From positions 1 through 16,209 of the forward strand of contig RFHZ01000302.1 in NCBI GenBank assembly GCA_003696125.1: DNA of 16,209 nt, in the 5' to 3' direction. This document shows, one piece after another, positions 6,354 through 14,014 of the stretch. The translations under genes were made by a program, and so were the position numbers. The notes beneath the pieces were generated by a model. It made no database searches, was not told the DNA's origin, and saw only the letters and a program-made list of their open reading frames with translations. This stretch comes from Nitrospinota bacterium (GTDB lineage Bacteria > Tectomicrobia > Entotheonellia > J063). Every line of letters begins with the position of its first letter. The stretch's first letter is position 1.

Positions 6354-6380
6354 TCAGGGGGAGAAGGGAGGTGTTATGAT
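6351..6380 (+). promoter_or_regulatory. Sigma70-type promoter for the Lon-like protease gene
   Basis: TTGTCA (6351-6356) matches the -35 consensus at 5 of 6 positions. TATGAT (6375-6380) matches the -10 consensus at 5 of 6, with an 18-nt spacer. Transcription would start near 6387 and give a leader of about 88 nt before the ATG at 6475. The -10 box overlaps the earlier in-frame ATGs at 6376 and 6379, which argues against those being used. Confidence 0.6.
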
Positions 6381-6474
6381 GGCACCTGAGTCTCTCTGGA
6401 GGCCTGGCGAGACCTATACCGTGCCACCCGGAGGGCATAAGTGTTCCACGCACCCTAGTCAGAGGAGAGGAAAG

Positions 6475-8787
6475 ATGAAAGCGTATACGCGTTACCTTCC
6501 CGTGCTGTTCATTATCCTTTTTATCTGGCCTTCGTTGGCTTTGGCCCTGGCGACCAAAGAGGTGGCGGTCGATGCCCTCTGGTTCGCCTCACGAGGCAAG
6601 GAGGTGATGGGAGGGACCAGCCAGGTCATTGTCGAGGTCGAGCCGAATCCCCGCCAGGGGATCCGGGTAGGGTTCTTTGAAGAGGTGGCCGGAGGGAGCG
6701 GCCCTTCCTGGCGAGCGGCCGGCTGGATGGCTTCGGTCCTCTCTTCTCAGCTCCTGGGAGTCGATCTCACCCATTATAAGATCTCCTTTGATGTCGGCGG
6801 ACGCATCGACGGTCCCAGTGCCGGTGGGTTGATGACCGCTGCCCTTACCGCGGCTTTTCTAGGGGATCAGGTCAAACCAGAAGTCTCCATGACCGGTATC
6901 ATCAACCCGGACGGGACCATCGGGCCGGTGGGCGGCATTCCTCAGAAGCTGGAGGGGGCGGCCAAGCGAGGGAAAAAGCTGATTTTGATCCCGTATGGAC
7001 AACGCTTTTCCATGGATCAGCGCCTCAAAAAGCTGGTCGATGTGGTGGAGCGAGGCAAATCCCTGGGGGTAGAGGTCCGGGAAGTGAGCGATATCTCCCA
7101 GGCCTATCAGCTCTTGACCGGCAAACCACTTCCGCAGGCGCGTCCGGCCAATGATCAGCCTCCCGAGATCCCGGGAGCGGTGCAGGCCAAGATCCGTAAC
7201 CGCACCCAGGTCCTGTTCAGTAAATACCGGGAGCTCATCTCCAAGGTGAAGATGGCCGGCCAGCTCCCTCCTGAACTGGGACAAATCGTCACCCAGGCGG
7301 AGAGTGCATATTCCCTGGCCCAGGATGCGGCTGCGCAGGGACTCTTTACCGTGGCCTATGATCGTATGTTCACCGCGGTCCTGATGGCCCAGGCAGCCCT
7401 GGTGGCCACGGATATCATCCAGACGGCGCAAAGCGGAGGGGGACAGGCTCTACAGAATTACTTCGACTCCCTAAAGGCGGTCAGGGGGAAGCTCGACGCC
7501 TTCCTCAATCGCCTGGACATGGAGACACCGCGCACGCTCAGCGATGTGGCGGCCCTGTCCGAAGCGTACGGGCTGACCATCCAGGCCTGGGGGAGCATCC
7601 TCCTGGGAGAGATTCGAGAAGGAGAGATGGAGAAGTTGCTGAAACAGGCGCAGGAGAAAGCCGAAAAGAGGCGAGGATCGGCACCGAGAGGAACGACACA
7701 GACGAGGCGACCTCAACTCGGTATTCAGGTCTCCGACTCTCCTTACGGTGTGATGGTGAACCAGGTGGCCCCGGGGAGTCCGGCAGAACGAGCCGGTCTT
7801 CTGGCCGGAGACATCATCCTCCAGTACAACGGCATTCCGGTCATGGATACGGCCACCCTCCTCCAACTGGTCAGTGCGACGCAACCGGGAGAGTTCATCA
7901 ACCTCCTGGTCTCGCGGGGAGGGATGCAGTTGTTCCTGACCGCCATGCTGGAGAGTGGTCCGCCGCCTCCTCCTCCACCTCAGACCCCAGCGAGTGAGCA
8001 GGAGTGGGAACGGATCGGACAGAAGCTTTACGAGGCGGCTTTCTTCTACAAGATGGCTGACCTTTTACATACCCTGGCCGAGGACCGCCTGCTCATCGGG
8101 TTAGGCTTTAGCGGTACCCCTGCCCCGGCAGTAGAGGTGATCGATAAGGCGGCGCGACTGTTCCAGACCACGGCAGAGGCGGGGATGAACTACCTGGACA
8201 GCATCGTCTTGCAAAACCAGGCTGAGGAGGCGGGTCTGACCCTTTCCGCTTACCGGTGGGCCTTTATGAGCAAGGATCCATCTTATGCCCTGGCCTACGC
8301 TACCTATCTGGCCCTGGGGGCAGGGATCAGTGCTTCCCCCTACGCCCGTCTGGGAGCATCCATGGCTCTGTACTACGGGACCGCTTCCCTGATCACCAAG
8401 TACTATTCCCTGGGGGCAGAGATCGGGAAAGGGGGTAGGGTACAGAAGGTGCGCTTTGAGAAGGCGTTGATCAACATGCTGGAACGCGCCTTCCGGAACG
8501 CCAGAGACGGGATCAATCTGGCCAGGGAGGCGGGGATAGAGCCGATCTTTTCCGCCTTCTTCTATGAGGCGGCCAAGTTTTTGCGGGAGCAGGATCTCGA
8601 GGGCAAGCTCTCTGCCCTGGCCTATCTCTGGTATGCGACGGCCGAAGCCCGGATGCTCGCCTTCCTGGGAGGAGGCCTGCGTCTGGAGCGTCCCCTCCCT
8701 GTTCAGCAACCCGCGCCCCAACCCGGGCAGCCGTCTTCCCCTCCTCCAGGGGGATCGGAAGCACCGAAGTCTCAGAAATCGTTATAA
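6475..8787 (+). CDS. Exported Lon-type (S16) serine protease with PDZ domain, no ATPase domain
   Basis: I take ATG 6475 as the start because AGAGGAGAGG precedes it and a signal peptide follows at once (KAYTRY, a hydrophobic core, then ALALA near 20-26). In-frame ATGs at 6376/6379 fall in the promoter. The 770-residue product has a Lon proteolytic domain at about 30-200. The Ser115 motif DGPSAGG and Lys158 in GGIPQKLEGA are 43 residues apart, the same spacing as Ser679/Lys722 of E. coli Lon. A helical stretch follows, then a PDZ domain at about 412-485 (RPQLGIQV, PGSPAERAGLLAGDIIL). After it come a proline run near 497, a long Ala/Tyr-rich helical domain and a Pro-rich tail. No AAA+ module is present, so proteolysis is probably ATP-independent and outside the cytoplasm. 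It recalls the archaeal-type secreted Lon-like group, with a PDZ added. Targets are unknown. Confidence 0.88.
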   Translation: MKAYTRYLPVLFIILFIWPSLALALATKEVAVDALWFASRGKEVMGGTSQVIVEVEPNPRQGIRVGFFEEVAGGSGPSWRAAGWMASVLSSQLLGVDLTHYKISFDVGGRIDGPSAGGLMTAALTAAFLGDQVKPEVSMTGIINPDGTIGPVGGIPQKLEGAAKRGKKLILIPYGQRFSMDQRLKKLVDVVERGKSLGVEVREVSDISQAYQLLTGKPLPQARPANDQPPEIPGAVQAKIRNRTQVLFSKYRELISKVKMAGQLPPELGQIVTQAESAYSLAQDAAAQGLFTVAYDRMFTAVLMAQAALVATDIIQTAQSGGGQALQNYFDSLKAVRGKLDAFLNRLDMETPRTLSDVAALSEAYGLTIQAWGSILLGEIREGEMEKLLKQAQEKAEKRRGSAPRGTTQTRRPQLGIQVSDSPYGVMVNQVAPGSPAERAGLLAGDIILQYNGIPVMDTATLLQLVSATQPGEFINLLVSRGGMQLFLTAMLESGPPPPPPPQTPASEQEWERIGQKLYEAAFFYKMADLLHTLAEDRLLIGLGFSGTPAPAVEVIDKAARLFQTTAEAGMNYLDSIVLQNQAEEAGLTLSAYRWAFMSKDPSYALAYATYLALGAGISASPYARLGASMALYYGTASLITKYYSLGAEIGKGGRVQKVRFEKALINMLERAFRNARDGINLAREAGIEPIFSAFFYEAAKFLREQDLEGKLSALAYLWYATAEARMLAFLGGGLRLERPLPVQQPAPQPGQPSSPPPGGSEAPKSQKSL

Positions 8788-8982: not shown

Positions 8983-11214
8983 ATGGCGTCGCATACCGCT
9001 GTAGGGCAAAGGGTAACCCGCATCGATGCCGCGGATCGTGTGACAGGACGGGCCCGTTATGCCGATGATTTCCGTCTTCCGGGCATGCTGTACGGGAAAC
9101 TCCTCTTGAGTCCCCTTCCCCATGCCAGGATCCGTCGTATCGATACCAGCAGAGCGGAACGCCTGGCCGGTGTCAAGGCGGTAATCACGGCCCAAGATGC
9201 CCCTGAACATCGCTTTGGTGGCTTGATCAAAGACCGGCTGATCTTTGCGCGTGAGAAGGTCCGCTATGCCGGGGAGCCGATCGCAGCCGTGGCGGCGGTG
9301 GATGAAGCCACGGCCGAAGAGGCGATTCACCTCATTGCAGTGGAGTACGAAGAGCTCCCGGTGATCCTGGATCCCCAGAAGGCTGCCGCTCCGGATGCCC
9401 TTCTGGTTCATGAAGAGTGGGAGACCTACCTGGCCGATCCTGATCTCCCGCGGCGAGGGAACATCTGTAACGGGGGAGAGGTGCGGTTCGGCGATGTGGA
9501 ACAGGGGTTCCGGGAAGCGGATCTGATCGTGGAAGAACGCTACGAAACCCAGATGGCGCATCAGGCCTATATCGAACCTCATGCGGCCATGGCTGCTGTG
9601 GATCCCTCGGGAAAGATCACGGTCTGGAGTACCACACAGGGACAGTTTCCGCTGCGCGATGCCCTGGCCGAGATCTTTGCTCTCCCCCACACCCGGATCA
9701 AGGTCATCGGGACCGAAATCGGTGGGGGGTTTGGGGGAAAGATCGCTCCCACCATCGAACCGGTGTGTATCCTGCTCTCGCAAAAGACCGGCCGTCCGGT
9801 CAAGATCACCATGGACCGCGAGGAAGACTTTCTCGATACCACCCCTCGTCGTCCCTGCATCGTAGAGCTCAAAACCGGGGTAAAGAGGGATGGGACGCTG
9901 CTTGCCCGGGAGGCGAGAATCTACTTTGCCACCGGGGCTTATGCCATCGGCCGCTATAACTTTGCCGGCAACGTGTGCCGACGGCTCTCCGGTCCCTATT
10001 ACATTCCCAACGTCCACTTTTCCGGCTATTCGGTCTATACCAACCAGCAGCCCTGTGGAGCCTTCCGGGCACCGGGAAGCCCCCAGGTCACCTTTGCCTG
10101 TGAGTCACACATGGAGAGTATCGCCGCCCACCTGGGGATGGACCCGATCCAGTTGCGCAAGAAGAATGCGTTGCGGAAGGGGCAACAGACCGCCATCGGG
10201 TCACTCGACGATTCGGCAGACCTGGTGGCCTTGATCGATCGAGCTGTGGAGGAGAGCGGCTGGTATAGCAAACCGCTTGCTCCCAACCAGGGTCGAGGAA
10301 TTGCCTGTAGCTTCTGGACTTCCAGTGCCCAGGCCGGGAGCAACACGGTCAAGCTGAACCAGGATGGCACGGTGGCCGTGACCACCGGTTCTATCGACCT
10401 CACCGGGACCCACACCACCCTGGCCCAGATCGTCTCCGAGGAGGTCGGGGTCGATCTCCAACAGGTGAGTGTCACCACGGCAGATACCGATGTGGCTCCT
10501 GTTGCCCCGGTCAGTGCCGGGAGCAACATCACCCGGAGCATGGGTGCGAGCGTCAAGCTCGCTGCAGAAACCCTCCGGCAGAAGCTCTTAGAACTTGCCG
10601 CCGATCACCTGGAAGCGAATGTCCACGATCTGGAGATCCGCAAGGGCGAGGTCTATGTGAAAGGGGTACCGGAGAGGGGAGTCTCCTTTAAGACCCTCTA
10701 TAACCTGGCAGCCACGAGCAGGGGGGGACCCCCGGTGGTCACCGCCTCCACCACCCCGCAGGCCCCTACGGTGAATTTCACCATTCAGGTGGCCACCGTG
10801 GAGGTCGATCCAGAGACCGGTGCGGTCAAGGTGCTCGATCTAGTCGTGGTGCAGGATGTTGGCTTTGCCATCAATCCCCTGTCGGTGCAGGGGCAGATGG
10901 AAGGAGGAGCGACGCAGGGTCTGGGCTATGGGCTGATGGAGCAGATGATCTTTCTGAATGGGAAGCTGAGCAATCCCCACCTGCTCGATTATAAGATCCC
11001 CAGTGCCCTTGATGTTCCCCCAATAAAGACGGTCATGGTGGAAGAACCGGCTTCCAGGAGTCCTTATGGAGCCAAGGGGGTGGGAGAGCCACCCATCGTG
11101 GCCACGGCTGCTGCGCTCGCTAATGCCATCTATCAGGCAACAGGCGTGCGTATCTCCTCACTCCCCCTGACCCCGGAAAAGATTCTCCAGGCCTTACAGG
11201 CCCGGAAGGAGTAG
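8983..11214 (+). CDS. Xanthine dehydrogenase family molybdopterin-binding (large) subunit
   Basis: A 743-residue molybdenum hydroxylase large subunit of the CoxL/XdhA/nicotinate-dehydrogenase superfamily. AAGGAGGG lies 6 nt before the ATG. The N-terminal alpha/beta hammerhead spans about 10-120 (VTGRARYADDF, VRYAGEPIAAVAA). The first Mo-cofactor domain carries GGGFGGK (247-253) and the active-site loop GAFRAPG (359-365). The second carries INPLSVQGQMEGG and the catalytic base Glu702 in GVGEPP. The loop is of the aldehyde/xanthine type, not the Cys-bearing loop of form I CO dehydrogenase. The FAD and 2Fe-2S partner subunits normally encoded beside it are absent from the window, so they must lie elsewhere or be replaced. 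It is followed after 38 nt by the rhodanese, probably on one transcript. The substrate cannot be read from the sequence. Confidence 0.92.
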   Translation: MASHTAVGQRVTRIDAADRVTGRARYADDFRLPGMLYGKLLLSPLPHARIRRIDTSRAERLAGVKAVITAQDAPEHRFGGLIKDRLIFAREKVRYAGEPIAAVAAVDEATAEEAIHLIAVEYEELPVILDPQKAAAPDALLVHEEWETYLADPDLPRRGNICNGGEVRFGDVEQGFREADLIVEERYETQMAHQAYIEPHAAMAAVDPSGKITVWSTTQGQFPLRDALAEIFALPHTRIKVIGTEIGGGFGGKIAPTIEPVCILLSQKTGRPVKITMDREEDFLDTTPRRPCIVELKTGVKRDGTLLAREARIYFATGAYAIGRYNFAGNVCRRLSGPYYIPNVHFSGYSVYTNQQPCGAFRAPGSPQVTFACESHMESIAAHLGMDPIQLRKKNALRKGQQTAIGSLDDSADLVALIDRAVEESGWYSKPLAPNQGRGIACSFWTSSAQAGSNTVKLNQDGTVAVTTGSIDLTGTHTTLAQIVSEEVGVDLQQVSVTTADTDVAPVAPVSAGSNITRSMGASVKLAAETLRQKLLELAADHLEANVHDLEIRKGEVYVKGVPERGVSFKTLYNLAATSRGGPPVVTASTTPQAPTVNFTIQVATVEVDPETGAVKVLDLVVVQDVGFAINPLSVQGQMEGGATQGLGYGLMEQMIFLNGKLSNPHLLDYKIPSALDVPPIKTVMVEEPASRSPYGAKGVGEPPIVATAAALANAIYQATGVRISSLPLTPEKILQALQARKE

Positions 11215-11252
11215 TGAGAAGAGTTATTTAAATAAGAGAAAAGGAGGGAGGT

Positions 11253-12086
11253 ATGGTAGACAAAGGGTATGCCAACCCACAGCTCCTCTGGTCTCCTGAG
11301 GAGCTGTATGCCCGTCTCCAGGATCCCAGGCTGGTCCTGATCGATGTCCGGACCACGCACACCTTTGTGAAGGGATGGATCCCTGGAGCGGTGCATTTTG
11401 ACCTGTACGGGATCAGCCTCAACAACACCAATCCGGAGCCGATGGCGAGCTTTATGTGGATGATGGAGTACCTGTTCGGGTTGCGTGGGGTCGATCATGA
11501 CAAGACGGTCGTCTTCTACGAAGGGATCGCCGGGATGCGGGCGGCCCGTGGTTTCTGGTTCCTCGAGTATATGGGACACGAGGATGTGCATATCCTCGAT
11601 GGAGGTTTCAAGGCCTGGGTGGCCGCCGGGTACCCGGTCTCGACCGAACCGACCATCCCGCAGCAGACGCATTTCCAGGCCAGGTATCGGCCGGAGTTGC
11701 ATCGCAACGCCGATGCCATCCGGGATATGCTCTCTGCTCCGGATGTGGTGATTCTGGATACGCGGACAGACGACGAGTACTACGGCCGGAATGTCCGTGC
11801 TGCCCGTGGAGGTACCATCCCGGGAGCGGTACATCTGGAGTGGGTGAACAACCTCAACCCGGATGGAACCTTCAAGTCTGGTGACGAACTGCGGGCCATG
11901 TACGAGGCGTGCGGTATCACACGTGATAAAGCTGTGGTCCCCTTCTGACAAGGAGGGTACCGCTCCTCCCATGCCTACTTTACGTTGCGGCTCCTCGGGT
12001 ATCCCCGGGTCCACAACTACATCGGTTCATGGAAGGAGTGGGGGGATAGGCTGGATCTGCCTATCGAACAACCCAAAGAAGCGTAA
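11253..12086 (+). CDS. Two-domain rhodanese (sulfurtransferase), probable selenoprotein with Sec232
   Basis: The frame runs from ATG 11253 (AGGAGG 5 nt upstream) through an in-frame TGA at 11946-11948 to TAA at 12084-12086, 277 residues. The N-terminal rhodanese domain (about 10-130: [30 protein letters not shown]) has Glu where a catalytic Cys would sit ([10 protein letters not shown]), as in the inactive half of thiosulfate sulfurtransferases. The C-terminal domain (about 145-277) has [12 protein letters not shown] and [10 protein letters not shown]. It then reads VVPF-[TGA][10 protein letters not shown] and continues with [16 protein letters not shown], the normal end of the fold. The TGA replaces exactly the catalytic Cys of the CQGGYR loop. 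Rhodaneses carry sulfane sulfur on this residue; Sec would form a selenosulfide or perselenide. If UGA were a plain stop, the product would lack its only active site. It ends 5 nt before a terminator and follows the Mo-hydroxylase gene, suggesting S or Se supply to it (inference). Confidence 0.8.
11946..11948 (+). other. In-frame UGA, probable selenocysteine codon at the rhodanese active site
   Basis: The codon lies between VVPF and QGGYRS, where the family has cysteine (TGC or TGT, one base from TGA). Forty-five sense codons in the same frame complete the domain, without any shift. UGA ends pilB, kdsA and pyrG in this window, so it is a stop elsewhere in this genome. A nonsense mutation or base-call error at precisely this codon is possible but would be a coincidence. 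Confidence 0.72.
11951..11967 (+). promoter_or_regulatory. Candidate SECIS-like hairpin just after the UGA
   Basis: AGGAG (11951-11955) pairs with CTCCT (11963-11967) around a 7-nt loop GGTACCG that begins with GGU, the kind of loop SelB favours. A competing register pairs GGAGG (11952-11956) with CCTCC (11965-11969). The loop starts only 8 nt after the UGA, nearer than in the E. coli fdhF element, so the match is imperfect. A larger fold using CCGC (11960-11963) and GCGG (11987-11990) leaves a long loop. Treat as a candidate only. Confidence 0.3.
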
Positions 12087-12288: not shown

Positions 12289-14014
12289 ATGGCCCAGACA
12301 CCCAGTCCACAGCAGGTCAATCGTGAAAAGTACCGGCACATGCGTCTCGGTGACCTCCTGGTCGAAACCGGTCTTCTGACTCCTGAGGAGTTAAAGGCAG
12401 CGCTGGAGGAGCAGCGGAAACGGCGGGGAAAGAAATTGGGGGAGATCCTGATCAGCATGGGATTGGCCTCAGAAGAGGCCATCTTTTCTACCCTGGCCCT
12501 CAAGTTCCGCATGCCCTTTGTCAATCTGGAGAAATACCCGATCAACCCGGCAGCGGTAGAAGAAATCCCCCGCTCCCTGATCCAGCGGTATCACTTTCTC
12601 CCCATCAACACGGATGAGAGGACCTTAACCGTTGCCATCTCCAATCCCACCAACACCGAGATCTACGACCTGCTCCGTTTTCAGGTCCAGAAGACGATCA
12701 AAGAGGTCCTGGTCACCCCGTCTCAGTTGGCCAGGGGGATCGAACAGGTCCTGGGCGAGGGAGACAGTGAGCTGGGAATACTCACCGAAGATCTGGGGGG
12801 TGAGCTGGAGGAGAAGGAAGAGGAGCAGATCAACGAGGACCTCCTCAAACGAGAAGCGGATGAAGCCCCTATCGTCCGGCTCGTCAATCGCATTATTCTA
12901 CAGGGGGATTCAGAAGGGGGCGTCAGACATCCATCTCTTGCCGCAGGCCCATGGACTGGTGCTGGCCTTTCGGGTGGATGGGGATCTGCGGGAGGCCAAT
13001 GTACTGGATCGACGGCTCCAGCGTCGCATCATCTCGCGCATAAAGCTCCTCGCCGGGATGGATATCGCCGAGCATCGCTTGCCCCAGGATGGCCGCATCT
13101 GGCTTCGTCGGGCCGAGAAAGAAGTAGAGATCCGTATTTCGGTCATCCCCAATATCTTTGGGGAATCGGTGGTCATGCGGATCCTGGATAAAGACGTGGC
13201 CATCGATTTGCGCTCCCTCGGCTTTCGACCGGCCGATTACCGCCGGCTGCTGTTGCTGACCCAGCGCTCCTACGGCCTGATCCTGGTCACCGGTCCCACC
13301 GGATCGGGAAAATCGACCACCCTCTTTGCCCTGCTCAAGGAGATGATCCATCGCCCCCTGCACATCATCACCATCGAGGACCCGGTGGAATCAAAGATCC
13401 CCGGAGTCAACCAGATCCAGGTCAATGCCAAGATCGGCCTGACCTTTGCCCGGGTCCTGCGCAACATCTTACGGCATGACCCGGATGTGATCATGGTCGG
13501 TGAGATGCGGGATCTGGAGACCGCCTCTATCGGAATCGAAGCCGCCCTGACCGGCCATCTGATGCTCTCCACCCTTCACACCAACAGCGCAACCGATACG
13601 GTTACCCGTCTGACCGATATCGGGATCCCCTCCTATCTGCTGGCCCCTGCGCTGCTGGGAATCGTCAGTCAAAACCTGGTGAAACGCCTCTGCCCGGCAT
13701 GTCGCAGAGAGATCTCCCGCGATGCCGAGATCTACTCCCTCCTGCAAGAGGCCGGGCTATCGACGGAGGGACCGTTATATGAAGCGGTCGGCTGTCAGCA
13801 GTGTCAGGAGACCGGATACCTCGGCCGGGTGATGCTCTACGAGTTCCTGGAGGTCAACGACCAGCTCCGCACCGCCATCTACAAGGGCCTGGGCGGCTCC
13901 GCCTTGCGTGAGGTGGCGGTTGCCCAAGGGATGATTCCCAAGATGCAGCATGCCTTAGAGCTGGCCACCCAGGGAATCATCAGCCATGAAGACCTCATCC
14001 GGGTCCTCATCTGA
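12289..14014 (+). CDS. pilB: PilB/GspE-type secretion or pilus assembly ATPase, apparent frameshift
   Basis: Two adjacent frames together give one intact family member of about 574 residues. The first (from ATG 12289) encodes an MshEN-type N-domain at about 19-72 (RLGDLLVETGLLTPEEL, then KKLGEILISMGL), of the kind that can bind cyclic di-GMP. The GspE N2 domain follows to APIVRLVNRIILQ. The frame shifts at five Gs (12903-12907); removing one G restores GIQKGASDIH. The second part holds Walker A GPTGSGKST (335-343), an Asp box ending in EDP, Walker B DPDVIMVGEMRD and a His box HLMLSTLHTN. It also has a zinc-type CPAC/CQQC pair (468-471 and 502-505), and ends with TGA at 14012-14014. The family powers type IV pilus extension or type II secretion at the inner membrane. 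Every motif is intact, so a sequencing error or recent indel is likelier than old decay. Neighbouring pilC or gsp genes are absent. Confidence 0.85.
12903..12907 (+). other. Frameshift site in pilB (run of five G)
   Basis: The upstream frame reads CAG GGG GAT; the downstream frame needs ATT (12908-12910) as the next codon. One G too many in the run accounts for the change exactly. Homopolymer miscount, a true indel or phase variation are the alternatives; I see no known +1 frameshift signal. Confidence 0.8.

Follow-up and report, generated by a model that had tools for sequence, protein, structure and literature searches.

Computational evidence for a selenocysteine-containing two-domain rhodanese in a Tectomicrobia genome

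Known selenocysteine rhodaneses and the gene in the window

Selenocysteine (Sec) forms of rhodaneses have been catalogued in metagenomic data. Three Sec forms of the rhodanese-related sulfurtransferase COG2897 were described from the Sargasso Sea in 2005 (PMC1088965), and the GOS data contained Sec forms in cd01449 (eight sequences) and in COG2897 (one sequence) (PMC2398784). A 2026 review lists a "rhodanese-like domain-containing protein form 4", which has the motif UxxG and is represented by MCY3690685.1 (PMC13188914). A preliminary description of the DNA studied here, made from the sequence alone, had noted that rhodanese-like Sec proteins appear in selenoproteome surveys; all three papers confirm this. 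We found no biochemical characterisation of the COG2897 Sec rhodanese family in the literature, and a literature search for selenoproteins and Poribacteria returned nothing.

The window (the whole stretch of 16,209 nucleotides that was analysed) contains a rhodanese gene with a single TGA in its frame. Direct reading placed this TGA at residue 232 and found 45 sense codons between it and a TAA (Table 1). The preliminary description had claimed that an in-frame TGA replaces the catalytic Cys codon of a rhodanese with two domains and that 45 further codons lead to TAA; the position of the TGA was exact and the TAA was found where expected. It had also predicted that standard gene callers would report a truncated protein of 231 residues. 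Indeed, the open reading frame under translation table 11 is 231 amino acids, whereas the read-through frame is 277 amino acids. Standard annotation stops the rhodanese just short of the active site, and the protein reported would be a dead one.

The read-through protein has two Rhodanese (PF00581) domains (whole-protein E value, 6.9e-40), and the match of the second domain runs across the one TGA. When the proteins are aligned, residue 232 occupies the column of the catalytic Cys, which is invariant in the C-Q-G-G-Y-R loop. Because the equivalent loop of the N-terminal domain is without Cys, this domain is presumed to be inactive, and residue 232 would be the only candidate for a rhodanese-type nucleophile. 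The layout is that of the COG2897 type, with PF00581 twice and the catalytic residue in the C-terminal domain. An AlphaFold model of the 277-amino-acid rhodanese had a pLDDT of 95.2, and its best PDB matches, 1uar and 1e0c, were full length. Because UQGG at residues 232-235 fits the form 4 motif UxxG (motif and COG were taken from PMC13188914 and PMC9312934), we assign the window gene, by motif and COG, as a predicted new member of the known COG2897 / form 4 selenoprotein family.

Table 1 Features of the predicted Sec rhodanese gene and its upstream neighbour in the window
Feature	Position	Strand	Remark
Molybdenum hydroxylase large subunit (xanthine dehydrogenase/aldehyde oxidase family)	8983..11214	+	38 nt upstream of the rhodanese gene
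Shine-Dalgarno-like GGAGGGAGG before ATG 11253	11243..11251	+	Direct reading
Predicted Sec-containing two-domain rhodanese (sulfurtransferase) CDS	11253..12086	+	277 aa if UGA is Sec
N-terminal rhodanese domain	11292..11624	+	Catalytic-Cys position in loop YEGIAGMR, without Cys
C-terminal catalytic rhodanese domain, UGA inside	11709..12044	+	E 9.9e-16 across the TGA
In-frame TGA, putative Sec232, at the catalytic Cys position (U-Q-G-G-Y-R loop)	11946..11948	+	Homologues have TGA, TGC or TGT only
UGA-proximal RNA hairpin (GGAGGG/UCCUCC), weak SECIS candidate	11952..11969	+	Loop about 8-9 nt after the UGA
ACGUUGCGG stretch	Codons 244-246 of the Sec rhodanese gene		
TAA, true end of the read-through frame	12084..12086	+	Direct reading

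In rhodaneses, thiosulfate or mercaptopyruvate donates sulfane sulfur to the catalytic residue, which carries it as a persulfide and passes it to a thiophilic acceptor. We consider it very probable that the window gene encodes a selenoprotein, namely a tandem-domain rhodanese of the thiosulfate/3-mercaptopyruvate type whose sole catalytic nucleophile is Sec232. SelB with GTP and Sec-tRNA(Sec) would decode the UGA, aided by a downstream RNA structure, and yield the 277-amino-acid enzyme; a failure of recoding would leave an inactive fragment of 231 amino acids. The selenolate of Sec would then accept sulfane sulfur from the donor as Sec-Se-S and hand it to a thiol acceptor. The position and conservation of the UGA, the purifying selection on the codons that follow it, the Sec machinery and the fold were obtained by computation; we infer that the UGA is recoded, and likewise the chemistry and substrate of the Sec rhodanese.

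Codon 232 and the codons after it in homologues

We searched 193 genomes for homologues, scanned named genomes as well, and read out the codon at the position of residue 232. Among 80 named loci, this codon was TGA in 31, TGC or TGT in 49 and any other codon in none. When the homologues were aligned, the TGA forms had no further stops inside the match. The preliminary description had proposed this comparison and had regarded scattered nonsense mutations in relatives as evidence against Sec; at this codon, relatives have exclusively Cys or UGA, and the UGA forms carry no such mutations. Most UGA forms come from Poribacteria, and the others from Gemmatimonadota, Latescibacterota and Tectomicrobia. 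Beyond the 80 named loci, UGA forms were found in genomes G043, G141, G052, G001 and G002.

In the maximum-likelihood tree, the window gene falls into a clade of 32 rows (31 UGA forms including the window gene, and one Cys form) with support of 100/98, which spans Poribacteria, Gemmatimonadota and Latescibacterota. Overall, the tree needs at least three switches between Cys and Sec. The UGA forms fall into one large clade that includes the window gene, and others have separate origins. The nearest relative, L058, is 68% identical to the window gene and has Cys (TGC) at position 232. L058 may have lost Sec or may have diverged first: the branch that unites the window gene with the other UGA genes and leaves L058 out is weak (88/30) and fits both. 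The window gene and L058 form a natural Sec/Cys pair with which the benefit of selenium for sulfur transfer could be studied. In two genomes of the window's class, G001 and G002, distant rhodaneses (L043 and L045; 35% identity) have UGA at the same codon, and this is probably a further separate Sec/Cys switch. Because the genome from which the window derives has further Cys rhodaneses (for example, on contigs C814 and C176), the Sec enzyme is likely to be specialised.

Homologues align with the 45 codons that follow the TGA, and these codons belong to the best-conserved parts of the rhodanese. Because of this, the domain match across the TGA is judged to be no coincidence. When codons 233-275 were compared with seven homologues, pN was 0.08-0.17 and pS was 0.54-0.81. 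Non-synonymous differences are rare and synonymous ones abundant; therefore, the stretch that follows the UGA is under purifying selection and behaves like translated sequence. Synonymous constraint in the UGA group has its maximum at codons 231-245 (top of 257 codon windows; mean excess, 0.18) and in the Cys group is much weaker at these codons, with all codon windows at 0.064 or below; because many of the UGA genes are closely related, this constraint and the folding signal described below are group signals from few independent events.

Selenocysteine machinery, downstream RNA and gene neighbourhood

The source genome, G000, is a metagenome-assembled genome (MAG) of 4.18 Mb in 990 contigs, with 94.8% completeness and 8% contamination. 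It contains a tRNA-Sec with the anticodon TCA (74 bits), and its contig C102 carries selB (386 bits) together with most of selA (560 bits). Contig ends cut off part of selA and of the best selD match. The selD fragment (L025:3-320, minus strand, at the end of contig C684) has an in-frame UGA of its own at residue 18 (CAGU), followed by a textbook bSECIS with a 7-bp stem, a GGU loop and a spacing of 20 nt. Because tRNA-Sec, selA, selB and a UGA-containing selD with a bSECIS are present, G000 is equipped to decode UGA as Sec. The preliminary description had suggested a search for selA, selB, selD and tRNA-Sec in this genome, and all four were found. Furthermore, selB and tRNA-Sec scored above the curated cut-offs in six of the six UGA-form genomes tested (G000 and the five genomes named above), and neither did so in G061, in which only a Cys form was found. 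In G077, where only Cys rhodaneses were found, there was a strong tRNA-Sec match (77.6 bits) and no selB above the cut-off. UGA is also a normal stop here: pilB, kdsA and, at the right edge, the pyrG-like gene all end in UGA, just as had been claimed, and the other genes of the window end in TAA or TAG.

The published bSECIS model has a loop of 3-9 nt with G in the first two places, lies 16-37 nt after the UGA and has an MFE of -7.5 or lower, and a subset of bacterial SECIS elements falls outside this model (PMC13188914). Downstream of the UGA in the window gene, no element that clearly matches the model was found. The hairpin close to the UGA has a spacing of about 8-9 nt, in contrast to the 16-37 nt of the model. 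Hairpins like it also form in Cys homologues. As a Sec-specific element this hairpin was rejected, since Cys homologues are equally stable in raw stability (p 0.48); it is no proof of Sec insertion because of this equal stability and because the codons for Q-G-G-Y-R-S favour such a stem. Only a codon-normalised folding test, in which the MFE of the 54 nt after the codon was compared with synonymous recodings of the same protein, separated UGA from Cys genes in this region: 35 UGA genes had a mean z of -1.62, compared with -0.12 for 47 Cys genes, and z was near zero in other parts of the genes. The window gene itself had a z of +0.28 for the 54 nt and of -1.22 for the first 24 nt. In an RNAalifold consensus over the UGA sequences, no stem at the expected spacing resembled a SECIS convincingly. 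A rule-based bSECIS scan, which enforced the closing pair only loosely, did not separate UGA from Cys genes and, because of both points, was used neither for nor against the window gene.

In three other UGA rhodaneses (L048, L118 and L049), a strong hairpin with a GGC loop lies 17 nt after the UGA. This hairpin, unlike the RNA of the clade of Poribacteria and the window gene, suggests independently acquired SECIS elements. In one speculative scheme, a non-standard SECIS serves the window gene and perhaps its whole UGA clade (the UGA-proximal hairpin at about 8-9 nt, or a bipartite element) and is read by the same SelB as the canonical selD SECIS, and the Sec rhodanese may supply sulfur or selenium to the molybdenum cofactor of the adjacent Mo-hydroxylase; we regard this scheme as unlikely. 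Because the window gene fits the SECIS model poorly, it can serve as a concrete test case for the coverage of bacteria by current SECIS rules.

The Mo-hydroxylase and rhodanese genes are possibly co-transcribed, and the upstream Mo-hydroxylase invites a link to cofactor sulfuration. As a functional link, this operon was rejected because neighbours are not conserved across the UGA clade. The neighbours differed in each of the other genomes examined, where the rhodanese lies beside a MATE transporter, serS, an ankyrin protein and an RNA methyltransferase, a ceramidase-like gene or an NAD-dependent dehydrogenase, and a Mo-hydroxylase was found nearby only at L118 and L128. Elsewhere in the window, positions 6376-8787 (+) encode a Lon-type protease C-terminal domain and a PDZ domain, with a long C-terminal region without Pfam match. 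A PilB/GspE-like ATPase gene at 12289-14014 (+) is frameshifted near 12900, where the open reading frame 12289-13191 continues in the frame of 12632-14014; the frameshift is either an indel in the contig or a true pseudogene.

Readings of the UGA and comparison with known systems

The misfit of the window RNA to the SECIS model, the Cys of the nearest relative and the weak 88/30 branch count against Sec. The first and second of these would suit an error of sequencing or assembly, in which the real codon is TGC or TGT and the gene encodes an ordinary Cys rhodanese. The contig belongs to a fragmented MAG with some contamination, and base errors in it are possible because the adjacent pilB is frameshifted. 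However, such an error must strike exactly one codon of 277 in a genome with Sec machinery, the frame has no other premature stop, and the gene groups with 30 UGA homologues; we therefore consider an error quite improbable.

A real nonsense mutation, which would leave a decaying pseudogene or a truncated protein, agrees with the 231 amino acids of the standard translation, and the loss would be tolerable given the further Cys rhodaneses of the genome. The gene has no other lesion, however, its downstream codons are under purifying selection and this UGA has become fixed in 30 related genes from several phyla, which makes this reading very hard to accept. Although the frame is open under several codes, insertion of Trp, Cys or Gly through a reassigned UGA or generic read-through is opposed by the genes that terminate at UGA in the window, by the Sec pathway and the UGA-containing selD of the genome, and by the restriction of UGA to the catalytic Cys column in all UGA homologues; we give it almost no weight. 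Sec232, as claimed in the preliminary description, is thus supported by the Sec machinery of its own genome, by homologues with only Cys or UGA and by the UGA clade.

Among known proteins, the Thermus thermophilus rhodanese 1uar and Azotobacter vinelandii RhdA (1e0c) share the full-length tandem fold with the window protein at 35-36% identity, and their catalytic Cys corresponds to residue 232; unlike the window protein, they have Cys rather than Sec. Likewise, E. coli 3-mercaptopyruvate sulfurtransferase SseA (NF008557, 1urh) belongs to the same family and has the same domain layout, but uses Cys. The window protein scores 112 bits, below the curated equivalog cut-off of 250 bits, and therefore the substrate preference of SseA is not implied. 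TsoB (NF045694) and the rhodanese LYCAU (NF041203) combine a rhodanese domain with Sec, as predicted here. Their layouts differ, since TsoB is a DsbD fusion and LYCAU is a short single domain, and the window protein lies far under both cut-offs.

The Sec rhodanese genes of COG2897 are the closest systems. Like them, the window gene is bacterial, is SseA-type, would have Sec in place of the catalytic Cys within U-x-x-G and has many Cys homologues. In contrast to the Sargasso genes, it comes from another organism and its downstream RNA has no visible fit to their SECIS model. The window gene would extend this catalogued selenoprotein family and points to a clade in Poribacteria, Gemmatimonadota and Latescibacterota that has conserved the UGA, with Cys and Sec having been exchanged separately several times.
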